NCBI RefSeq assembly: GCF_900101345.1
Contig: NZ_FMUX01000002.1
Span: forward strand, 124,001 to 188,000
DNA length: 64,000 nucleotides
From: Desulfoluna spongiiphila
Lineage (GTDB): Bacteria > Desulfobacterota > Desulfobacteria > Desulfobacterales > Desulfolunaceae
Reading direction: 5' to 3'
This document shows, piece after piece, positions 262-11,385 of the stretch. The notes under the pieces were generated by a model, which saw only the letters and a program-made list of their open reading frames with translations, searched no databases and had not been told where the DNA came from. Within the stretch, counting starts at the first letter, position 1, and the number at the start of each line of letters is the position of its first letter. The position numbers and the translations under genes are program-made.

Positions 262-1260
262 TTACGATGCCTTCGTGTGGGCCAGCTTGCCTTCGGAACC
301 CTCAAGGGGTTCATTTGCATCTTCCCCGGTGGGTTTCTGGGCCAGGATCACAGCAATAAATGAGCCCGCCAGCATGACCGTCGCACCGGTCATCTGTATG
401 CCGCGTATGGATTCCCCCAAAAAAAGGATGGAGAAGAACGACCCGAAAAAGGGCACGGTAAACATCATGATGGTCGCTGTGGAGGCGCTCACCCGTTGCA
501 GCCCGTAATAGTATAACAGGTAGGCAATGGCCGTCGGGCCAACGCAGAGGTAAGCGATATTGTACCATGCCAGCCGTGAAACGGAGGACCAGTCAACCGC
601 CTGGACATGGGGTACTGCAAGTGCCATCAGTGCAAGGGCCCCACTTGCTGTGGCCCATGTGGTCGCCCTTAACGGGTCGATGTTTCCCTTGGACAGCAGG
701 GTTTTGGAGACAATGCTGTACAGCGCCCAGGAGCAGGCCCCGACCACGAAGAACAGATCTCCGGCCATTCTGGTTTTCAGCGATTCCGCTGTACCGGCCC
801 CAAATAGGAAGACGGCTGCGCCCACCAGCCCCAGGAAAAGGCCCAGAATCCTTGTGGCCGACGCTTTTTCGCGGCCCAGGGAGAGAAGGATCGCGGTGGT
901 GATGATGGGGCTGAGAACCGGCACAATGACGCTTCCGTCGATGGACGGGGCCAGAGAGAGCCCCCAGAAAAAGAACAGGTTGTAGGCAAACACCCCGAGC
1001 AGTCCGGCAAATGCCGCGGACATCGCCGCTCCCACACCGATGGGCTTTGATTTGATGTGCAATGCCATGGAAAGGACCATCAGCAGCACACCGCCACCCC
1101 CGAATCTCAGTGCCGCCGCAACCTCATGGGGCAACTCCCCCACGACGAACTTGGAACTTGCAAATGCACTTCCAAACATGACCATCGTAATCAGCAGGCT
1201 GAGATATGGCGAGGCATTGGAAAAGCGTTCAGACCGGCCTTGCGTCTTGTCAGTCAACAT
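262..1260 (-). CDS. DMT-superfamily (EamA) exporter of the biosynthetic operon
   Basis: A 332-residue polytopic inner-membrane protein with about ten hydrophobic segments arranged as two EamA repeats (roughly residues 16-145 and 165-300), typical of drug/metabolite transporters. The start is placed at 1260 because AAGGAGA lies about 9 bases upstream; a longer reading adds eight residues that include the ribosome binding site itself. It is the last gene of the minus-strand NRPS-like cluster, 121 bp after the PP-loop gene, with a long stem structure between them. By position it may export the cluster product or a precursor, which is inference; family members also carry amino acids and other metabolites. 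Confidence 0.85.
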   Translation of the reverse strand: MLTDKTQGRSERFSNASPYLSLLITMVMFGSAFASSKFVVGELPHEVAAALRFGGGGVLLMVLSMALHIKSKPIGVGAAMSAAFAGLLGVFAYNLFFFWGLSLAPSIDGSVIVPVLSPIITTAILLSLGREKASATRILGLFLGLVGAAVFLFGAGTAESLKTRMAGDLFFVVGACSWALYSIVSKTLLSKGNIDPLRATTWATASGALALMALAVPHVQAVDWSSVSRLAWYNIAYLCVGPTAIAYLLYYYGLQRVSASTATIMMFTVPFFGSFFSILFLGESIRGIQMTGATVMLAGSFIAVILAQKPTGEDANEPLEGSEGKLAHTKAS

Positions 1261-1302
1261 ACAACATGTTCTCCTTTCATCCATCTGTATTACCAGAAAT
1301 TA

Positions 1303-1376
1303 AGGCAGGTGGTTTGAGTGCCCGTTCCCCGGTGTCCGTGCCAGATGTTTCTGACGTCTGGGGAACCCACCTGCCT
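1303..1376 (-). other. long nested stem-loop between PP-loop and exporter genes
   Basis: A perfect 10-bp outer stem (AGGCAGGTGG at 1303-1312 with CCACCTGCCT at 1367-1376) encloses a 7-bp inner stem (GTTCCCC 1324-1330 with GGGGAAC 1360-1366) and a further small hairpin near 1340-1361. There is no T-run, so it is not a standard terminator. It could be an mRNA-processing or attenuation element separating exporter expression from the enzymes. Confidence 0.5.
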
Positions 1377-1381
1377 GATCT

Positions 1382-2857
1382 CTATCTTCCCGACACCCGG
1401 TCCATGACCGGCGCGTCGTCGTTTCCGAAATTTACCCGGATCAGCTTCTGGTTCGGGTCGCTTTTTGTGATGAAGGGCAACAGGCGGCCCTGCTCGCTGT
1501 CACTGCCCAGGGGGGACCACAGGGGGGCGCCGAAGAGTTGCCTCAAATCGGTGAGGCTCAGCCCGCTCAGCCTTTCCAGCTTGAAGGCCAGTCCCTGATC
1601 CTCAATGTGACCCGTCTCCAGGAGGGCGCAGATTTTGGCTTCCCGGGGCAGCAGGTCCGGCTGCTCGGCGGCCAGGTAATCGTGAAGACCGGCACACCCC
1701 CCTGCAAAAGGGGAAAAGACCATGCAGACCAATTGCTCGGTTTTCAGGCCAAAGGTCGTCCGGGCGTACGTTTCCATCAATCTGCGCATGGTCGCCACAC
1801 CACCTTCGGTGGCGTAGCGTTTCTTTATTGTGTCGATGAGGTGACCTGGAAAGTCCTTGTGCTTCATCAGGTCGATGGCGAAATCCGCGTACTGGTCGAT
1901 TCCTTCCCGGTAACTGCGCTTGTAGACCCGCTCGGTGCGAAGCCCGCGCAGATGGGCCATCATGGCCGGGTTGGCACAATCGGATTCGGTGAAGCTGAAG
2001 GCCAGGTCGTCGAAGACAAACCCCAGGAAATCGGTCAGGAGCGACCAGTGCGCTCCCGAGGCATAGTCTGTGTAATCGTAAATCGAGAAAAAGGAGAGGG
2101 TCTCGGACACGTCCCAGGTTACCCTGCGATCCGCCAGCCGGTCCGCATGGCTGGCGCCGTGGATCTCCGTGAAATAGGCGCGCGATATCCCGTCGAGGAC
2201 TTTAAGGGTGCCTTTAAACGAGGTGTCACCGGCCGGTTTCTGCCCGGTCTGGCGTGCGAGCTTGTGAATCCACTGGGCATAATCGCGCTGTTCGCTGGGG
2301 GAATCCCCGGTGACGATGAGGTCCACACCGCAATGACGGGCCGCCACGCCGAAGAAATTGGCCACGTTGAAATTGCAGGCATTGCAAAAGGACGTTCGCC
2401 CGTCTCCGTATGACTGATGGCCGGACATGAGAAGGTCGGTCCGGTTGAAGTTGATCAAGGTGTGGGGCATCGGCGCGTGCAGGTCGAAGGGTCGCACCTC
2501 CTCCCCTTCGATGAGGAGAAGCTCGGCCATGGGGTCGTCGTACACCCCGAGTGTGCGATAGGTCCGGTCGATGTTCTGCATCACGACGAAGGGCATGCCT
2601 GAGTGACGCATCGTAACGATAACAAGCCGGAACGTATCGCCGCCAAAGCGCTCTGCCATGGCCAGGTGAACGGCCCGCATGAAGGCGGTTGTGTACGCAC
2701 TGTCCTTGCCTCCGCCATAGGCCACCATCACCGTGTTTTTGCTCAGGTTCTCTTTGTGGGGCAATCTGTTGTGCAGATTTGTTACACATTGTTCAACGGC
2801 GTTTACATCATTATCGGGCAGGGCGTTTCGCAGCGCGCTCAGTATTTTCTTTTGCAT
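1382..2857 (-). CDS. PP-loop / adenine nucleotide alpha hydrolase-type ATPase
   Basis: A 491-residue protein with an N-type PP-loop at residues 47-53 (YGGGKDS) that binds ATP and adenylates a substrate, as in tRNA sulfurtransferases, GMP synthetase and amidotransferase partners. A CNAC pair (Cys158, Cys161) and a TGDSPSEQ motif near 183-190 lie in the same fold. Start ATG 2857 has AAAAGGA 8 bases upstream. Such enzymes can install sulfur or nitrogen on an activated carbonyl; in closthioamide biosynthesis an enzyme of this superfamily makes thioamides on carrier-bound intermediates. Whether this one does thioamidation, amidation or something else is unknown. Its neighbours (adenylation-carrier protein, AsnB, thioesterase) make a natural-product role likely. 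Confidence 0.75.
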   Translation of the reverse strand: MQKKILSALRNALPDNDVNAVEQCVTNLHNRLPHKENLSKNTVMVAYGGGKDSAYTTAFMRAVHLAMAERFGGDTFRLVIVTMRHSGMPFVVMQNIDRTYRTLGVYDDPMAELLLIEGEEVRPFDLHAPMPHTLINFNRTDLLMSGHQSYGDGRTSFCNACNFNVANFFGVAARHCGVDLIVTGDSPSEQRDYAQWIHKLARQTGQKPAGDTSFKGTLKVLDGISRAYFTEIHGASHADRLADRRVTWDVSETLSFFSIYDYTDYASGAHWSLLTDFLGFVFDDLAFSFTESDCANPAMMAHLRGLRTERVYKRSYREGIDQYADFAIDLMKHKDFPGHLIDTIKKRYATEGGVATMRRLMETYARTTFGLKTEQLVCMVFSPFAGGCAGLHDYLAAEQPDLLPREAKICALLETGHIEDQGLAFKLERLSGLSLTDLRQLFGAPLWSPLGSDSEQGRLLPFITKSDPNQKLIRVNFGNDDAPVMDRVSGR

Positions 2858-2950
2858 TCCAATTTCCTTTTCAGGTAATAATCAGGTAGTCACTAACGGC
2901 TGCTAATGCAGCACCATACATGGTCTTCGCTCGTGATACAACTTAATTGC

Positions 2951-3640
2951 TTAATGATGAGTAATCTCTTTGACCCATGTTATGAACTCATTTGTAGCCA
3001 GTAAATTCGTATGGCCGCCGCAAAATCGCCGGATGCTCATGCGCTCGGTGGTGTAGTCACCCCAGCCCGTCAGCCCGTTTTCCGTGACAAGGGGGTCCTC
3101 ATCCCCTGATGCCGCGAAAATCGGGCAGCACAGTCGCCCAAAATCCGAGGCATGGAAATCGCTCAGCATATTCAGCTCCTTGCGGGTCGTATCGATGAGT
3201 ATATCCTTCCATTCGTGGCTCGGCATGCGTTCAAACAGCCCCGGGTCGACCGTCGTCCAATAGGCCTCGATTTCTTCCGATGAACGCGGTAGTAAGGCCG
3301 ATCCATCGATGAGGTGGGGGGCATTGGCGCCCACAATGACCAGCCCACCGATTTGACAGCATGCCAGTTCCAGGGCGGCTGCAAGGGTGTAGGCCATGTA
3401 CGCGCCAAAGCTGTGCCCGAACAGGATCGGCTCTTTTTCCGAAATGTCCCGGAGTTGGGGTACAAAGGAGACGGCGGCGTCGTGAAAGGAGGGGGTGTCC
3501 GTGTGACTGGTCTGCTCGTAACGCCAGGGATAGCGGAGAATTCGAACGTTTGGCCTCAAGGTGCGCACCATCGGTTGAAACTCGCTGCCGAAAGATCCTG
3601 TTCCGGGAAAGATGATGACATCCCGTGTTGCATCGTCCAT
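2951..3640 (-). CDS. type II thioesterase-like alpha/beta hydrolase
   Basis: A 229-residue alpha/beta hydrolase of the thioesterase family that accompanies NRPS/PKS systems. The nucleophile elbow GHSFGAY places the catalytic Ser at residue 77; a candidate acid is in SGDEDP (about residue 177) and the histidine is His210 in GGHTN. The ATG at 3640 has AAAGGA about 10 bases upstream. It probably releases or edits acyl or aminoacyl groups from the carrier domain encoded two genes upstream. It lies 28 bp from the AsnB gene and 93 bp from the PP-loop gene, so it is almost certainly co-transcribed. Assignment to the family is firm; the substrate is not known. Confidence 0.85.
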   Translation of the reverse strand: MDDATRDVIIFPGTGSFGSEFQPMVRTLRPNVRILRYPWRYEQTSHTDTPSFHDAAVSFVPQLRDISEKEPILFGHSFGAYMAYTLAAALELACCQIGGLVIVGANAPHLIDGSALLPRSSEEIEAYWTTVDPGLFERMPSHEWKDILIDTTRKELNMLSDFHASDFGRLCCPIFAASGDEDPLVTENGLTGWGDYTTERMSIRRFCGGHTNLLATNEFITWVKEITHH

Positions 3641-3668
3641 GATGATTTGTCCTTTTGGTTTGTTCCAC

Positions 3669-5447
3669 TCAGCACCGCAGCCCCAGCTCGTCGACGATCA
3701 TCGATAAACTGATGGCTCCCAGGCGAAAATCCCACTTTTCCTTGAGATGTGCCGTGGAAGCCTCGGCCATGCATTCCACATTCAGGGCTCCCACCGACGC
3801 GACCATGTCGTGCCAGGTCCGCCACAAGGTATCGTCGACGATGGATTTCAGGTCGTAGGCGGTGAACCCGTGCTTGGCCCGGTTCGTTACCGTCTCCGGA
3901 ACGGTGTCGCGATACGCTGTTTTGAGGCATGCCTTGCCTTCGAAGTTGACGACCTTTTCCTGGTCCGGGACGCGCAGCGCCAGGGAGACAACCCCATTTC
4001 CAAGGAACGGGTAGCGGCCCTCGATGGAGTTGGCCATGACCATGGAATCTCCGTGGTCGCCCAGCAGGTGCCCGCCCAGCTGGACATAGACGTCGGCGAT
4101 GGAGCGCAGCTGCATGGGGGAAAGCCCTTTGAGTTCATCGTCTGAATACGGGATCAGCCGATGGCGCCAGAACTCCCGCCCGGTAATCTCCTGTCGCGCA
4201 CTTTCGGACAGGAAGTTTTGACGGCGTTTTTCCACACGGTCGTGGTCGACTTCCCAGCTGAAATCTGCCCGGCCCCATGCCTGCTCATTCTGGACGCACT
4301 CCATGCGTGGCCCGCGCTTGACACTGTCAAATGCGTAGGAATCGTATCCGAAGAACAGCTCATCTGCGCCTTCACCCGACACCACGCCCTTGATCCCTGC
4401 CCCATGCACATGCTCGGAGAGCATCATGGCAGACACATTGTAGGTCTCGCGCTGGGGGAAACAGCAATGGCGAACCATCTTCTCGAACCGCGCGGCAATG
4501 TCTTCAGGGAAGCATCGTATCTCATGGTGGACGCTGCCTGCCGTTGCCGCCACCGAGCGCTGAAAGCGCCCCTCGTCCAGCATCGGGTCGTTGAATGTCA
4601 CCGAAAAGGATTTCATGGTCTTTTTTGACATGGACGCCGCATCCATGAGAATTGCCGTGGAATCAAACCCGCCGCTCAGGTAGGCACCGATCTCTACATC
4701 GGAGTGGAGCCGCATGGAGATCGATTCCTTCATGGCTTCACGTAGTGCCTCTACGTCGACGGGCCCTTTCTCGGAAGAGAACATGCCGTAGCGCCAGTAT
4801 CGGAGGGTTTTACGTCCATTCTCATCGAACCGTACAGCGCATCCGGGCTCCACGCCAGAGACATGTTCCACGAGGGTTTTCGGAGCGACAACGTTGCCAA
4901 GGGAAAAATACTGGTCCACGGCGGTGTAATCCAGTCTCCACGGGTGACGGATCGCCTGGACAAGGGGTTTGAGTTCTGAGCAGAAATGGATGCAGTTCTC
5001 CACCTCACTGAAGAAGAGCGGGCAGATGCCAAAGCGATCCCGTGCCAGGTAGAGGGCGTTTTCCTTCCGGTCATAAATCACCGTTGCAAACTGACCGTCG
5101 ATTTTTTCCAGCCCTTTGATGCCGTGGCGAGCCACCAGCTCCGGGAGGATCGCCACATCAACCCCGTTGCCGCTTGGCCGGGGGATGCCCAGCTCTTCGA
5201 AAAGCCTGTCGGCATTGTATATTTCCCCATTGGTCAGCGCCACAAAACGGCCACTGGCCTCTTCCACCGGTTGCCAGCCGTCTTGCAGCCCGATCATGCC
5301 GAGTCTTGCGAGCTTCACCGAAAGGGACGCCGTGTTCAGGGAGTAGGCCTCGTCCGGCCCCCGGTGGGTCAGCCTGTTGTGCATGGCAACGCAGAGACTG
5401 CGATCCAGCCGACCATCCGGGGCAAATGTACCGCTTATACCGCACAT
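3669..5447 (-). CDS. asparagine synthase (glutamine-hydrolysing)-like amidotransferase
   Basis: A 592-residue class II amidotransferase. It starts MCGI, so the glutaminase nucleophile Cys2 is intact, and it has RLTHRGPD and NGEIYN in the glutaminase half. The synthetase half has the PP-loop SGGFDST (258-264) and SGEGADELFFGY. It would release ammonia from glutamine and transfer it to an adenylated carboxylate. The full domain set separates it from beta-lactam synthetases, which have lost the glutaminase Cys. The start has AAAGGAGG about 10 bases upstream and overlaps the end of the adenylation-carrier gene by 13 bp, indicating translational coupling. In this operon it may amidate a pathway intermediate rather than make free asparagine. 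Confidence 0.9.
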   Translation of the reverse strand: MCGISGTFAPDGRLDRSLCVAMHNRLTHRGPDEAYSLNTASLSVKLARLGMIGLQDGWQPVEEASGRFVALTNGEIYNADRLFEELGIPRPSGNGVDVAILPELVARHGIKGLEKIDGQFATVIYDRKENALYLARDRFGICPLFFSEVENCIHFCSELKPLVQAIRHPWRLDYTAVDQYFSLGNVVAPKTLVEHVSGVEPGCAVRFDENGRKTLRYWRYGMFSSEKGPVDVEALREAMKESISMRLHSDVEIGAYLSGGFDSTAILMDAASMSKKTMKSFSVTFNDPMLDEGRFQRSVAATAGSVHHEIRCFPEDIAARFEKMVRHCCFPQRETYNVSAMMLSEHVHGAGIKGVVSGEGADELFFGYDSYAFDSVKRGPRMECVQNEQAWGRADFSWEVDHDRVEKRRQNFLSESARQEITGREFWRHRLIPYSDDELKGLSPMQLRSIADVYVQLGGHLLGDHGDSMVMANSIEGRYPFLGNGVVSLALRVPDQEKVVNFEGKACLKTAYRDTVPETVTNRAKHGFTAYDLKSIVDDTLWRTWHDMVASVGALNVECMAEASTAHLKEKWDFRLGAISLSMIVDELGLRC

Positions 5448-7195
5448 AACCGTTCAGCCTCCTTTCCGGGGAACGCGTCAATCAGGTCTCCGAGTGTTGC
5501 TGCCCGAAGCACGTCACGCACACCGACATCGGTCCAACCCAGCTCCTTGAGTTTTCCCAGCAGGATGAGGGTCGAGGCCGAATCCCCGCCAATGTCGAAA
5601 AAATTGTCGTTCCGGTGGGCATCATCCAAGCCCGTGAGGCTTTGCACCAGGGACATAACCTGGGCTTCGACGGTTGCCGCTTCTCCAGCGATGGGGGTGC
5701 GGGTGGCCTGCAAGGCATGGCGATCGACCTTGCCGTTTCGGGTGTAGGGCATTATGTCCAGGCGTTTGAAAAGAGACGGCACCTTGTACGGATTGAGGTG
5801 CGCCTCAAGGTGCCGTCGCAGCATGCGGGGCCCGGCCGCACCCTGGTAATAGCAGACCAGGGCGTCGGTGGCTTCGGCGTCTTGGTCCACGGCGTGAGAT
5901 TCCGCCAAAACCACCGCTTCGACGACGGTGTCGAGACGGCAGGCCACGCTTTCCACCTCCCCGGGATCGATGCGGTAGCCCCTCACCTTGACCTGCCGGT
6001 CGCATCTTTCCACAAAGAAAAACTGGCCGTCTCGGACAGTGACGATGTCACCGGTGGGATACACCTGGGTGTCTGCTGGACCGGAAAAACGTTGCAGGCC
6101 ATCGTCGGTAAGGTAGCCGATGGCAACGCTTTTCCCTGTGATGACGAGCTCTCCGCATAGGTCCGAAGACAGTTCCGTGGCATGATCGGTTTTCTGCCGG
6201 GTAATTTTTACGCCGCATTCTCCGACCACATCTCCTAGGGGGACCCCGTCGCGGCACGCTTCGGGGCTCAGCCCATCGGTGAGAAGATTGCAGATTGTCG
6301 TCTCCGTGCAGCCATAGGCATTGTGGAAGGCGGCAATGCGCGCCCATTTTTCAACCACGGCGGGTCGGCAGGCACCGCCACCGTTTAGAACATGGCGCAA
6401 GTGCATGCCCGGTGTCGGCTCTGTTGCCGTTAAAGCAAACGGCGTGGTTTTCAGGTGCGTAATGGCATGGCGCGTAAGCGTGTCCTGCAACACCGCACCG
6501 GGCGTCAGCGCGCTTTCGTCCACCATCACAAGACGGGCTCCGGCACACAGTGTCCAGAAGATCTCGGTGAGGCACCCGTCGAAGGTGAGCTTTGCAAACT
6601 GGAGCGTCCGGCTTTGCGGCCCCACCTCCAGGCGGCGACGGTGATCCGTAATCACCCCGTTCAGTGAATCACGTGCCACGATGACGCATTTGGGTTCCCC
6701 CGTGGATCCCGAGGTGTGGATCGCATAGGCGATGTTGCCGTAAAATTCATGCAGGTCCTTGCGAGGTGTCAGCTGATTTGTGTCATGGCCTCTCCAGGGG
6801 GAAGGTGTTGGGACAAGCTCAACCTCTCCAGGGTTTGCTGTGCCCTGGGCGACCCTGTTGACCCGAAGCCGGGAGATCTTGCTGCGATTGGATTCTGCGC
6901 TGTCACGCGGGTCGATTACCACGAAGGGCCGGTGGGCCCGCAACAGGCCCACCATGGCCACAATCGTTGCCGCATTTCGCTGTCCCTCAATGCCGACAAA
7001 TTCACCGGGAACGGTCATGCGTTCTATGTGGGATACCAGCGACCTCGACTCTTTATCGAGGTCGCCATAGGTCAGCGATGCCGTGGGGGTCTCAATGGCT
7101 GTGTGCTCCGGATCCATGCGAACACAGTGGTCGATCATTTCGACAATGGACATGCTTTCTTTGACGTTGGTCTCTTCTTTGTTTATCCGATGCAT
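5435..7195 (-). CDS. free-standing NRPS adenylation domain fused to a peptidyl carrier domain
   Basis: A 586-residue A-PCP didomain. The adenylation domain has the A3 motif TSGSTGEPK (161-169) followed by Cys instead of the usual Gly, a YPTGD A7 motif, and RCDRQVKVRGYRIDPGEVE as A8; the A10 lysine motif is NGKVDRHA. The carrier domain has FFDIGGDS with the phosphopantetheine Ser at about residue 539. No condensation or thioesterase domain is attached, so it loads one amino or carboxylic acid for tailoring in trans. Start 7195 has a short GGAAAG just before ATG; a second in-frame Met is 14 codons on. Substrate specificity cannot be read reliably by eye. Confidence 0.9.
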   Translation of the reverse strand: MHRINKEETNVKESMSIVEMIDHCVRMDPEHTAIETPTASLTYGDLDKESRSLVSHIERMTVPGEFVGIEGQRNAATIVAMVGLLRAHRPFVVIDPRDSAESNRSKISRLRVNRVAQGTANPGEVELVPTPSPWRGHDTNQLTPRKDLHEFYGNIAYAIHTSGSTGEPKCVIVARDSLNGVITDHRRRLEVGPQSRTLQFAKLTFDGCLTEIFWTLCAGARLVMVDESALTPGAVLQDTLTRHAITHLKTTPFALTATEPTPGMHLRHVLNGGGACRPAVVEKWARIAAFHNAYGCTETTICNLLTDGLSPEACRDGVPLGDVVGECGVKITRQKTDHATELSSDLCGELVITGKSVAIGYLTDDGLQRFSGPADTQVYPTGDIVTVRDGQFFFVERCDRQVKVRGYRIDPGEVESVACRLDTVVEAVVLAESHAVDQDAEATDALVCYYQGAAGPRMLRRHLEAHLNPYKVPSLFKRLDIMPYTRNGKVDRHALQATRTPIAGEAATVEAQVMSLVQSLTGLDDAHRNDNFFDIGGDSASTLILLGKLKELGWTDVGVRDVLRAATLGDLIDAFPGKEAERLCAV

Positions 7196-7235
7196 ATCTT
7201 TCCATCTTTATAGCCGATCGCCTGTCTGGGGCGGT

Positions 7236-8075
7236 CTATTTTACATTGTGTGAAAGGTGCCCGACCTGCTCTACCATGGCCTCCACAGTGTCTCCTGCCT
7301 CAATGGCCGCCGCGCCCGGGGTTCCGGTGCAGATCACCGTGCCCGGCAGGAGCGTTCGGCCCGCTGAGAAATACTCCACCAGAAAGCCCAGGTCGTAACG
7401 CATCTCCGATACCTGTGCCGAGGCAATGGTTTCTCCGTTTCGCACGGTGGAAACGCGCAGGGTTTTAAGTTCATCCGGCGCGAAGGTGTCTATGGACACA
7501 AGGGCGGGGCCTATGCTGCAAAAGGTGTCAAAGCCTTTGGCCCATGGGATATAGCGAGGGTTTTCACGAATGACGTCTTCGGCGGTCATGTCCAGGACCG
7601 TTGTCACGGCCACCACGGCATCCCGCCAGTTCTCGCGGGCTACGTTCTTGCAACGCGTCCCGATGACAAGGCCAAGCTCCCCTTCCGCCGTGACGCGCTT
7701 GCTTTGCCGTGGCAGACGTATGTCCTCACCATTTGCAATAAGGCACCCGGTTGGCCTCAGGTACGACCCGGGCCCTGAAACCGGTTGGGCTGCGTCCAGG
7801 TCTTTGGCGTGTCCGCGGTAGTTTAAACCCGCGCCCCAGATATCTCCCCCCTCACCGGCCACCGAGGCTGCCGTGTCCAACCCGCTGGCCGGAACATCTG
7901 CCCGGGGCTGTTTTCTCAGCACCTCGTCAATGGCTTTTCTGTGCCCTTGCCCCAGAAGCTCCACAAGGCGAAGCGATTGGAATTCGTCCGGCAGGCAAAC
8001 CCACCGGTCTTCACCATTGCACGCGTGGATTTTTGCGCTGCCGCTGCGTGTTAATCGAGACAGTTTCACTCTCAT
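7236..8075 (-). CDS. fumarylacetoacetate hydrolase (FAH) family protein
   Basis: A 279-residue protein with the FAH catalytic domain from about residue 78. GLNYRGHAKD is followed by a metal-binding acidic set (AEGELGLVIG, with VLDMTAEDV downstream) and a C-terminal CTGTPG segment typical of acylpyruvase/2-keto-pentenoate hydratase-like members. Such enzymes hydrolyse, hydrate or decarboxylate 2-oxo/acylpyruvate compounds using a divalent metal. The ATG at 8075 directly abuts AAAGGAA; a GTG two codons downstream (8069) has better spacing and may be the true start. It lies 36-40 bp from its neighbours in the biosynthetic operon, next to a DRE-TIM aldolase, the pairing seen in catechol meta-cleavage (MhpD/MhpE-like) routes. 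Confidence 0.85.
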   Translation of the reverse strand: MRVKLSRLTRSGSAKIHACNGEDRWVCLPDEFQSLRLVELLGQGHRKAIDEVLRKQPRADVPASGLDTAASVAGEGGDIWGAGLNYRGHAKDLDAAQPVSGPGSYLRPTGCLIANGEDIRLPRQSKRVTAEGELGLVIGTRCKNVARENWRDAVVAVTTVLDMTAEDVIRENPRYIPWAKGFDTFCSIGPALVSIDTFAPDELKTLRVSTVRNGETIASAQVSEMRYDLGFLVEYFSAGRTLLPGTVICTGTPGAAAIEAGDTVEAMVEQVGHLSHNVK

Positions 8076-8111
8076 TTCCTTTCGAATCAGCTCTGTTAAA
8101 ACGAGACACCC

Positions 8112-9143
8112 TTATGCATACACTTGCTGTGACACGATTTCGGACGCTTTATAGATGTCGGATTCCTTTGGGTCGTATGTGGCAACGTTCAACGCCTCTT
8201 TCATGACGGCCATCTCGTCGATCATCTGCTCTGAGCACACCTTTTCGATCACCGGGAACAGGCTGGTATGCAAGCCGATGACCCCGCCCAGCACCTGCAG
8301 GTAGTGGCTTCCGGGTATGACCTTCATGTTCCGGTTGCACATCTCGGCCAGTTTCGCGAATTCGCGGTAGTCATAGGTGCCCTTGCCCATGTTGGACAGG
8401 ATGCCCGCCAGGGATTCTATGGCGGCGTTGCCGCTGCCTCGACCGATCCCGTGCAGGGTGCCGTCTACGATGGATGCCCCTGCAGAGATCGCGGCAAGGC
8501 TGTTGGCATTGGCCATGCCCAGGTTGTTGTGTCCGTGAAAACCGACCACCGGGAATATCTCCTTGACGGCACGGACATAGTTTTCAACATCTTCCGGCAG
8601 CATGGTTCCATAGGAATCGACGATATAGACACCGGCGACTTCAGAGGGCACATTACGCAGGAAATCCCGGAGCTTGGTGTGCGGAACCACGCTCGACTTC
8701 ATCAGGTTCAGGTAGACGTCATCACACTGCTGCAGGGCACTTTCGACGTAATCCAGGTTCTCTTCCACCCGATACGCCTCCAGGCCGACCCGCACAAAGG
8801 ACATCCCCTCGCTGCACAGCCAGGACAATGTGGAGAGCCGGCTGAATTTGGGTTGTGCGAACATCCCCCATTTCGACGACGTAAAATTCGCATTGGCTAT
8901 GTCACACCACTCCGTGAGGCTGATATTGCACTCTTTGTGACCTGCTCTTTCTGCTTCAAAACCAATCCCGTGCGCAATTTCTACCAGGCCGACAGAGACA
9001 TCGTTGAGTTTCTTTGCCAGATCAACAACGAAGGCCTTGTCAAATTGGAAATCAACCGCGTAAGAGCCGTCACGCAGAGTCGAGTCGAGCAACTTGATCT
9101 CACCGGTTGACCGAATCAAATTTTGTTCGATTTTTTCTCTCAT
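8112..9143 (-). CDS. DRE-TIM metallolyase (HMGL-like / 4-hydroxy-2-oxovalerate aldolase-like)
   Basis: A 343-residue TIM-barrel enzyme with the family signature DSTLRDG at 20-26, metal ligands in GFHGHNNLG (His203, His205), and GTLHGIGRGSGN downstream. The family includes homocitrate and isopropylmalate synthases, HMG-CoA lyase and 4-hydroxy-2-oxovalerate aldolase; overall length and the HGHNN loop suggest the aldolase/lyase branch. It could form or cleave a C-C bond with a 2-oxo acid or acyl thioester. It is the first gene of the biosynthetic operon, with AAGGGG about 10 bases before ATG. It probably provides an unusual 2-oxo acid building block together with the FAH enzyme, which is inference. 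Confidence 0.85.
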   Translation of the reverse strand: MREKIEQNLIRSTGEIKLLDSTLRDGSYAVDFQFDKAFVVDLAKKLNDVSVGLVEIAHGIGFEAERAGHKECNISLTEWCDIANANFTSSKWGMFAQPKFSRLSTLSWLCSEGMSFVRVGLEAYRVEENLDYVESALQQCDDVYLNLMKSSVVPHTKLRDFLRNVPSEVAGVYIVDSYGTMLPEDVENYVRAVKEIFPVVGFHGHNNLGMANANSLAAISAGASIVDGTLHGIGRGSGNAAIESLAGILSNMGKGTYDYREFAKLAEMCNRNMKVIPGSHYLQVLGGVIGLHTSLFPVIEKVCSEQMIDEMAVMKEALNVATYDPKESDIYKASEIVSQQVYA

Positions 9144-9921
9144 AATTCATGTCCCCTTAATATGTCATACAGATTAAAAGTCGTAACTCCCGGTAAAACC
9201 GGGCGCTTGAATCATTAACAGCTCACATGCGGTCTGCTTAACATGGCTTATCTTTCAGTGTGCGCAGGTGGTTGTGTGGGAAAAAACAGCTCATCGTCGT
9301 TATTGCTTGGCAGGCTGTGTCGATGCCGTGGTTTCGTTAAAAAATCAGCTCTGTTGTTGTACGATCGGTAAAATAAAAGGCCTGGGTGATGGCGTTTCAC
9401 GCATGAAACCGAGCCCTGGAAAGGACGGGGCGGTGCCCGATATGGTTCGTGCAGCCGATATACCCTACAGCACGTTTGCGAATACGGTGTCTCGGCAAAT
9501 GAGAATTTTAGTTTTGCGAAAATAAAGGTGTTGGTGACATGCCAGGAAGCATGGCCCATTGTTTATATATGAAAGATTTGTGATTGGGTTAATCTTACAA
9601 AATTTAATATAGTGGGGGATATTATTTATAAGTAGTTAATTCTGTCAAGCTAAAATTTTCAAATTTCGCGAATTCGTAAACGCGTTCGAGGTGGGGCTTT
9701 ATGGCAAGGCGATGCAACAGGTTGAATCGCCCGCGTATACGTGGTGCTGAACGGTTCGGCAGGCAAAAGACGGGCGCGACGGCACACATTCTTCAAGGAG
9801 GGTGCAGGGGGCACCTCTGGGGCGAATGTCCCTCTGCGCACCGGCGTAACCAATGGCGGTCTCCATGCCTTTGCCATGGAGATCCGAGGGGATTCACGCC
9901 ACGCCGCCGGCGTTGCTTCGG
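9144..9921. other. AT-rich upstream region of the biosynthetic operon; no confident gene
   Basis: This 778-bp gap separates the biosynthetic operon from the radical SAM gene. About 9150-9690 is clearly richer in A+T than the rest of the window and should hold the operon promoter for the minus strand; I could not fix a -35/-10 pair. A short plus-strand reading frame (9268-9525) has a C-terminal part that vaguely resembles a helix-turn-helix but has no ribosome binding site. There is a TTCGCGAA palindrome near 9666-9673 and a hairpin (CTCCATG/CATGGAG) at about 9865-9885, close to the 3' end of the radical SAM gene. Confidence 0.4.
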
Positions 9922-11007
9922 TTAAGGGTGCAGCCAATTGACCATCAGCCTCCCTGCGTGCCCGAAGTACCGGTTTTTAAGGCTCATGGAAAGGTAACGC
10001 CGGTTCACCGCGTCTGTGTAGATGTCGTAGCCCGCCTCTTTGAGCATGGCGCGGCAGGCAGAGGCGTCCCAGGCCCTTCCGGCTTCGGTCTCCATGTCGG
10101 TGTCCCGGGGATTGGTGCCCCGTTCCGCCACCAGGAAGTTGGCCCCGGCCGCCAGGCAGAGGGGGGAGGGTTCGTGGGCGGCCAGGGTGAAGATGGTGTT
10201 GCCGAAAAAGAGGCGGGTGACGGCGGTGATGCGGGCGAACTCTTCGTCGGAGATCTGGCCGTAGGGCTCAAGGGGGCTGCCGCACAGGGGGATGCGCTTC
10301 ATGGTGGCCATCCAGGAGATCTTGAGGGTGCGCATCAGGTCCAGAAGGTCGGCGATCTCCTCGTAGCTGTGTTCCGGGCCGATGGGCTCCAGGCAGGAGC
10401 CCACCAGCAGGCCTGCCCGGTGGGCGTTTTCAATGGTCTGCATGCGTTTGTAAGGGTCGATGAGGGTCACCGCTCCTTCGCCGAGCCTTAAGGCGTGGTA
10501 GCAGAAGGTGAAACCGGCTTTCTTTACGGCCCGGGCCTGGTCCGGGTCCAGGTCCCCCCAGTTGGCAAACAGGGGGATTCGTCCCTTGAGCCTTTTGTGG
10601 ACCAGTCTGCCCATGGAGAGGAAACGGTCAAATTCGTAATCGGCGGTGGACATCAGGGAGATGGACCCCACCTTCTGGGATTCAAAGGCCGCGGCATGGG
10701 CCAGGACCTCCTCTTCGCCGAGTCGGAACGGGTTGTCAAGGGAACTCCAGGTGTCGCTGAACATGCAGAACTGGCAGTCCTTGCTGCACCGCTCGCCGTT
10801 GAGGCCGATCTGGCCGTGCACCTCGCCCATGTTTCCGAACTGGCGGCGGGAGACGCCATCGGCAGCAGCCAAAAGGGCCTTGAAGTCGTCGCCCCGGGTG
10901 GGGATTCCGTGGAGCAATGCCAATGCCTCATGCCTGGTGAGGCCCTTTCCTCTTTTGCCTTTTTCAATGATGGTTCGGGTGCCGTGATCAACCGTTTCAT
11001 TTCGCAT
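9922..11007 (-). CDS. BioB-like radical SAM protein
   Basis: A 361-residue radical SAM enzyme. The [4Fe-4S] cysteines are CSKDCQFC (Cys74, Cys78, Cys81), the C-x3-C-x2-C pattern, preceded by GQIGLNGE as in biotin synthase and related HydE/PylB-type proteins. It is related to biotin synthase, but no other biotin gene is near. The start at 11007 is chosen because GAGG lies 9 bases upstream; the frame is open for 75 more codons, but these read through hairpin-rich noncoding sequence. It follows the DUF2156 and GNAT genes on the same strand but with a 378-bp gap, so co-transcription is uncertain. The substrate is unknown. Confidence 0.8.
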   Translation of the reverse strand: MRNETVDHGTRTIIEKGKRGKGLTRHEALALLHGIPTRGDDFKALLAAADGVSRRQFGNMGEVHGQIGLNGERCSKDCQFCMFSDTWSSLDNPFRLGEEEVLAHAAAFESQKVGSISLMSTADYEFDRFLSMGRLVHKRLKGRIPLFANWGDLDPDQARAVKKAGFTFCYHALRLGEGAVTLIDPYKRMQTIENAHRAGLLVGSCLEPIGPEHSYEEIADLLDLMRTLKISWMATMKRIPLCGSPLEPYGQISDEEFARITAVTRLFFGNTIFTLAAHEPSPLCLAAGANFLVAERGTNPRDTDMETEAGRAWDASACRAMLKEAGYDIYTDAVNRRYLSMSLKNRYFGHAGRLMVNWLHP

Positions 11008-11385
11008 ATTTTTAAACCTCATTTCGCAATTCTTCGAAAGCCGGTGCGACATGCCTGTGGCATTCTCTGGTCGGGCTGCGCAATGCAGGGGGCGTGGCCT
11101 GTCTGGGGTTGTCGGAGTGGCGGGCAGCATATGGGGCCGTAAAATCTGAGCCTCAGGCCGGGGAGGGTCTTGTTTTTTGATCTGTGGGGCCCCGGCGGGT
11201 TTCGTGATATGTGCCAGCCATTGACAGATCACCGTTAAACAAATAGCAAGGCATGTGCCAGCCGGGGGCCCTTGTCTCCTATATTTCTTTGGCGGATATT
11301 CGCCGGGCCTTGTTCCTGGCCCGGCGGGAAAAGGTCAACTCCGGAGGGGTGGGGTCCCCTCCGGAGAGGATGAGCGCACAGGCGA
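11008..11385. other. intergenic region with two strong GC hairpins
   Basis: No gene is seen. Two nearly perfect hairpins lie side by side: CGCCGGGCC/GGCCCGGCG (11301-11309 with 11318-11326) and an 11-bp stem CTCCGGAGGGG/CCCCTCCGGAG (11339-11349 with 11356-11366). Neither has a T-run. The second is 19 bp beyond the end of the DUF2156 gene and may terminate or stabilise its message. Confidence 0.5.

Follow-up and report, generated by a model that had tools for sequence, protein, structure and literature searches.

A compact set of biosynthetic genes lies at the left edge of the window, which here refers to the whole 64-kb stretch analyzed (G000:C16:124001-188000, contig NZ_FMUX01000002.1) of the 6.5 Mb genome of Desulfoluna spongiiphila. 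Seven minus-strand genes occupy positions 262-9143 and are read from ALD to DMT. ALD (8112..9143, PF00682 E 3.5e-28) encodes a DRE-TIM aldolase resembling 4-hydroxy-2-oxovalerate aldolase, FAH (7236..8075, PF01557 E 6.1e-46) a fumarylacetoacetate-hydrolase-family enzyme, A-PCP (5435..7195; PF00501, PF13193, PF00550) a free-standing adenylation and carrier didomain, and ASN (3669..5447) a glutamine-hydrolyzing AsnB-type amidotransferase. They are followed by TE (2951..3640, PF00975 E 2e-17), a type II thioesterase, PPL (1382..2857), a PP-loop ATP pyrophosphatase of an unnamed family with a directly read GGGKDS motif, and DMT (262..1284, PF00892 E 3.5e-37), an EamA-type exporter and the last operon gene inside the window. 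The intergenic spacings from ALD to DMT are 36, 40, -13, 28, 93, and 97 nt.

The initial annotation had listed these seven genes with their families, and every open reading frame was confirmed at its place and strand, the families being borne out by Pfam, NCBIfam, and motif reading. Its list was incomplete, as two more minus-strand genes continue the operon beyond the left edge. LRSED (C16:122522-123970, window -1478 to -30) encodes a 482-residue editing protein like leucyl-tRNA synthetase (LeuRS); it lies 291 nt past DMT and ends 31 nt left of window base 1. SDR (C16:121680-122492, window -2320 to -1508) lies 29 nt further. The nine genes, presumably a single transcript, have an identical order in Desulfoluna butyratoxydans (L011), the nearest named relative in the scan described below, with 84-85% identity for PPL and 68-85% for the remaining operon proteins.

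Recurrence was examined using a PPL alignment as the query against one genome per species, so association of other genes with PPL was measured from the PPL side only. The best 80 of 129 confirmed loci were examined. Gene presence was counted by tblastn, and gene families (f0-f92) were formed by single-linkage clustering, which may merge distant proteins. In a PPL tree of 79 sequences, the window and 13 loci (L011-L023) form one group (14/14, support 1.0), here called clade A, and the rest are 65 of the 67 other loci, two of which fell outside the length filter. Clade A hosts are Desulfoluna, Pseudoalteromonas, Streptomyces, Micromonospora, Nocardiopsis, Sphaerimonospora, and actinobacterial metagenome-assembled genomes.

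ALD, FAH, A-PCP, ASN, TE, and PPL are all present in 13/13 clade A loci, with TE ~3.7 kb beyond PPL in L023, a recurrence beyond what chance adjacency would give. The scattering among relatives that the initial annotation had named as a ground for refutation was thus not seen in this clade. SDR was found in 11/13, LRSED in 8/13, and DMT in 7/13; in L015 another SDR-like frame follows DMT, as judged by eye. The full six-gene set occurs in none of the 67 other loci, whose PPL is 38-49% identical and several of which are on short contigs (5-16 kb). What these loci contain are weak lone matches to A-PCP, TE, and ASN in L036 (26-34%), to the aldolase in L043 (27%), and to A-PCP in L037, L038, and L041 (25-31%), and a frame clustering with the FAH family in L029.

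The genes also diverged jointly. With the Desulfoluna pair left out, pairwise distances of ALD, FAH, A-PCP, ASN, TE, and SDR correlate with those of PPL at r 0.92-0.97 (Mantel p 0.0005), those of DMT at r 0.96 (p 0.015), and those of LRSED at r 0.56 (p 0.005). Because their divergences track each other, the genes travel as one pathway, which seems to move as a block between phyla. Within the phylum of the host, PPL was found in 1 of 395 sampled genomes, that of D. spongiiphila itself (E 1e-20), and plasmids contain one distant homologue, from Methylobacter (39% identity).

The loading, amidation, and release genes are conserved in their motifs, which were read in 14 aligned rows, the window and the 13 clade A loci. 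A-PCP exceeds the cut-offs for adenylation (PF00501) and carrier (PF00550) domains, as a nonribosomal peptide synthetase (NRPS) didomain does, and its carrier motif GGDSAS is kept in 14/14. The A-domain code, read from motif anchors with GrsA numbering, is DGTKLGAICK in the window and D G T K [ILV] G A [IV] C K in 14/14. Asp235 is the usual anchor of the alpha-amino group, and Thr239 with Lys278 resembles Asp/Asn codes. Gly236 stands where Asp codes have Leu, so that a larger acid would fit. The loaded substrate had been proposed to be a derived acid; with Asp235 and Lys278 in 14/14, the code points instead to a substrate that is probably an alpha-amino acid whose side chain is acidic. ASN has MCG and SGGFDS and scores 318.1 bits for TIGR01536 (cut-off 267.1), identifying a glutamine-hydrolyzing asparagine synthetase; SGGFDS is kept in 14/14 and Cys2 in 11/14, the other three rows having unresolved starts. 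TE has GHS[FY]G in 14/14. Loading and amidation would follow from these conserved motifs and the function of the families.

PPL matched no Pfam family at E 0.001 and no NCBIfam entry, and a 99% identical record (P0001) matched no Pfam family at E 10, HMMER filters applying. When PPL was compared by hhalign with six profile sets, the nearest was the WbuX-like set (N-acetyl sugar amidotransferase-like, amide to amidine), by about four orders of magnitude; TtcA gave 7e-5 to 1e-4, TtuA 2e-4, and QueC 0.02-0.03. By profile, PPL seems nearer to amidotransferases that activate amides than to sulfur enzymes, and it may act like an N-acetyl sugar amidotransferase (NASAT) although it lacks that family's marks. 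It differs from NASAT proteins (WbpG/WbuX, 8wex) in having GGGKDS, not SGGxDS, and in sitting in biosynthetic operons, not lipopolysaccharide loci. We infer the PPL step from remote relatedness.

Other identities for PPL were rejected. A QueC assignment (PF06508) has no Pfam match and the poor hhalign value above, and hhalign gave no backing for placing PPL in TilS or AsnB. The name 'PqqD family protein' carried by PPL homologues raised a hidden precursor of a ribosomally synthesized and post-translationally modified peptide; no PqqD domain appeared in 9 PPL proteins at E 10, small frames not having been systematically searched. TAL-effector matches to a PPL homologue (E to 6e-6) were judged spurious, as the single stretches failed alone.

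Outside clade A, PPL homologues keep other company. In Pantoea and kin, Pfam on L052 places PPL beside a WelO5-like oxygenase, a tRNA_edit protein, and a class-II glutaminase (GATase_4) that stands alone; an ATP-grasp-family protein, typed via its cluster, and an EamA-like exporter, recognized by eye, are also there. Across the 67 loci, the glutaminase family was counted in 33, the oxygenase in 36, tRNA_edit in 34, and the exporter in 34. In Kribbella-type loci, the partners of PPL according to Pfam (L024) are a cupin, a DAO enzyme, a MetRS-like protein, and a Lys/Orn N-hydroxylase, a set that resembles hydrazine-forming ones, and no glutaminase family was seen there. In Streptomyces griseofuscus-type loci, PPL occurs with glutamate-mutase-like proteins, recognized by eye from sequences. 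That PPL pairs with amino-acid chemistry, and in Pantoea with an exporter and a tRNA-editing protein too, favors an amino-acid product for the operon.

Two of these sets are recorded here in their own right. That of Pantoea rwandensis (L052:9944-15663), with a YbaK-type tRNA_edit protein, is a conserved operon of Pantoea, Erwinia, and Enterobacter and looks like a separate amino-acid antimetabolite pathway. The PPL/N-hydroxylase/cupin/MetRS-like/DAO set of Kribbella catacumbae is at L024:8594-14756.

LRSED is a LeuRS relative that has lost charging motifs and kept the editing domain. The D. butyratoxydans ortholog matches PF13603, and its AlphaFold model (pLDDT 87.6) is a LeuRS shrunk to 480 residues, with the editing domain at ~2 Å. 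KMSKS is absent in 30/30 LRSED proteins and HIGH in 29/30 (one has a HIGH-like motif), and the D. spongiiphila copy has neither, so that the pair of a functional LeuRS is missing. PF13603, the editing fold, and the catalytic Asp (D345 in E. coli), present in 30/30, identify a LeuRS CP1 editing domain. The editing-motif regular expression was derived from LRSED, so its non-match to the genome's own LeuRS-length frame carries no information. Judged from these motifs, LRSED likely protects the producer by clearing mischarged tRNA. Many LRSED-like proteins (P0253-P0310, 34-55% identity) were seen mostly in metagenomes, one in Sorangium; LeuRS proteins reduced to editing may have a wider spread than the operon.

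With LRSED and SDR in the operon, the reading shifts to an amino-acid antimetabolite with trans-editing self-protection. The best reading is a pathway of this type with carrier-bound tailoring, made unusual by two parts, a PP-loop family without a name and a LeuRS that would only edit. That the conserved operon makes and exports a small non-protein amino acid mistaken for leucine, with LRSED protecting the producer, we hold tentatively, at a little short of even chances. A narrower version is possible yet doubtful. In it, the product would be an amino acid antibiotic shaped like leucine, with an amidine or nitrile formed from its side-chain amide by a PP-loop family not described before, and LRSED, acting solely as a proofreader, would strip the antibiotic from tRNA-Leu in trans. 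No described pathway with this gene set was known to the initial annotation, and none was found in searches of open-access papers, a set that leaves out most subscription journals.

The pathway would proceed in six steps. First, ALD, FAH, and perhaps SDR would make an unusual 2-oxo diacid, which a housekeeping transaminase would convert to an Asp/Glu-like amino acid; this step is the least certain. Second, A-PCP would activate this amino acid and tether it via its alpha-carboxyl. Third, ASN would use glutamine nitrogen to turn the side-chain carboxylate into an amide. Fourth, PPL would adenylate the amide carbonyl, and ammonia would displace AMP, most likely giving an amidine, with nitrile or thioamide as alternatives. 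Fifth, TE would set the amino acid free, and the DMT protein would export it. Sixth, LRSED would hydrolyze tRNA mischarged with the product. Carrier-bound chemistry, nitrogen from AsnB, thioesterase release, and DMT export thereby stay from the initial annotation as expected functions of their families. Its PP-loop enzyme adding nitrogen or sulfur is narrowed by the profiles toward amide activation, sulfur keeping a small share.

The enzymes of the first step are taken up here together with several points that weigh against this proposal. The best NCBIfam entries for ALD, PRK08195 and TIGR03217, are both under cut-off (137.7 bits vs 286 for the latter), making it a relative, not an equivalog, of 4-hydroxy-2-oxovalerate aldolase. 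Its HxH metal motif is kept in 14/14. At the positions of His21 and Tyr291, the catalytic residues of those aldolases, all 14 rows have Tyr and His, an apparent swap. FAH keeps the ExE...D metal residues and WAKGFDTF in 14/14. In SDR, Ser/Arg replace the usual Tyr/Lys pair in 12/12 rows. With these altered residues, both ALD and SDR may do altered chemistry. The roles given to ALD, FAH, and SDR are guesses from family names, and the operon contains no transaminase. On a rhizocticin-type precedent for an aldolase with FAH, a literature search gave nothing relevant. The ammonia-transfer reading of PPL is weakened by contexts without a glutaminase: 34 of the 67 other loci lack that family, so ammonia transfer would not be the sole possible PPL chemistry. 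For LRSED, a TDWSP sequence replaces TRPDT of LeuRS in the threonine-rich loop, so its substrate may not be leucine-like. LRSED is also missing from 5/13 clade A loci (L013, L014, L015, L017, L022) and tracks PPL moderately, so it may be accessory; L017 is cut near a contig end, and its species encodes an LRSED relative (P0247) on another contig.

The cysteines and fold of PPL raise a further point against the proposal. Cys158, Cys161, and Cys294 are invariant in 25/25 aligned rows. NASAT proteins carry an N-terminal, zinc-binding tetracysteine motif, CxxCXn[GN]xCxxC, as described in PMC10607449. PPL has no such motif before GGGKDS and no TIGR03573 match at E 1, and its third invariant Cys would fit a [4Fe-4S] enzyme that transfers sulfur. 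In alignment, Cys158-x2-Cys161 falls on the CxxC of TtuA and, with Cys294, gives three cysteines as in [4Fe-4S] PP-loop thiolases, and Foldseek, alone among the comparisons, has the thiolase NcsA (6scy) as its top match at E 3e-3 and TtuA at ranks 5-7. PPL could then insert sulfur in the manner of TtuA/TtcA/NcsA, with a thioamide or thiocarboxylate amino acid as the product. We consider this unlikely. None of the Foldseek matches reaches E 0.001, the alignment did not put Cys294 on the third TtuA Cys, which was matched by eye, and hhalign favors the WbuX-like set by the margin given above. Besides, neither a cysteine desulfurase nor a sulfur carrier is encoded in the operon, but a glutaminase-bearing AsnB is.

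A cyano amino acid, formed if PPL dehydrates the AsnB-made amide to a nitrile, is likewise improbable. ATP-dependent nitrile synthetases (QueC, ArtA/NitB, PesC) provide the precedent, as PP-loop ATP pyrophosphatases that activate a carboxylate or amide as proposed for PPL. However, ArtA is argininosuccinate-synthetase-like and PesC AsnB-like according to PMC13060819. The hhalign value for QueC is poor, and no known nitrile synthetase is the nearest relative of PPL in a profile comparison that had ArtA outside it. Furanomycin was considered as a candidate product, and a literature search on it gave no link to these genes.

Variation among clade A loci bears on the remaining alternative. Added families were taken from the clustering, with Pfam run on L018, L019, and L020 only. 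Beside the core, the actinobacterial loci L016, L018, and L023 carry a C-A-PCP module with a second TE and an MFS exporter, L014, L020, and L021 an ATP-grasp protein and an FAD protein, and L017 and L019 a ThiF protein. In all, 8/13 loci supplement the core with an ATP-grasp ligase, a ThiF enzyme, or a single-module NRPS. The three C-A-PCP modules share the code DMGCMG[CV]V, one position being unresolved. A core making one building block, which Desulfoluna and Pseudoalteromonas perhaps export in free form and several actinomycetes couple to another component, would account for this variation. That some larger peptide or siderophore takes an ordinary building block from the core, with LRSED an unrelated neighbor or in another role such as supplying aminoacyl from tRNA, would suit the three loci with added modules (Pfam on L018 only) and the five without LRSED, but is quite unlikely, since the D. 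butyratoxydans and Pseudoalteromonas loci, as far as their available sequence extends, show no extra assembly line beside the core, only the DMT exporter, and since the kept editing Asp and lost charging motifs of LRSED fit hydrolysis, not tRNA charging.

The preferred antimetabolite reading has partial precedents. Coronamic-acid-type logic likewise has a stand-alone A-PCP loading, tailoring enzymes, and a TE freeing an amino acid; the present operon would differ in that AsnB and a PP-loop family without a name do the tailoring, aldolase and FAH being present in all 13 related loci. AgnB2 (5ah5) is reportedly a full LeuRS giving agrocin 84 self-immunity, and is thus a LeuRS relative serving the producer of a toxic compound; LRSED differs in its lost KMSKS and HIGH. 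The fluorothreonyl-tRNA deacylase FthB is said to give trans-editing self-resistance within an antimetabolite cluster. Canavanyl-tRNA deacylase (PMC10018355) is another trans-editing example. In both, a stand-alone editing protein clears a toxic amino acid, as LRSED would, LRSED differing as a LeuRS shrunk to ~480 residues without charging motifs. If the antimetabolite reading is true, the operon represents a new class of amino acid antimetabolite across distant phyla, PPL a family of ATP-dependent carbonyl-activating enzymes named by neither Pfam nor NCBIfam, and the editing-only LeuRS a self-resistance device indicating the molecular target. The product could then be approached without knowing its structure, through the amino acid that LRSED clears from tRNA.

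Upstream of ALD, a promoter-like site on the minus strand (9619..9648, TTGACA-16/18-AATAAT or TAATAT) matches the consensus only; 3 such sites were seen in the stretch searched vs 1.2 expected (standard deviation 0.9). Further upstream, on the same strand, are a radical SAM protein (9922-11232), BioB/PylB-like and far under curated cut-offs, and a protein with an LPG_synthase_C domain (PF09924, 11386-12579), a fold that in MprF uses aminoacyl-tRNA. Elsewhere in the genome, a second NRPS(-PKS) cluster opens with a WbuX-like PP-loop protein on the plus strand (L010:190-1272, G000:C16:432189-433271). In addition to its N-terminal cysteines, it has a CxxC following the PP-loop and, 87 residues on, another Cys, which recurs in most of its relatives; it falls under the TIGR03573 cut-off and may be another unrecognized carbonyl-activating enzyme.

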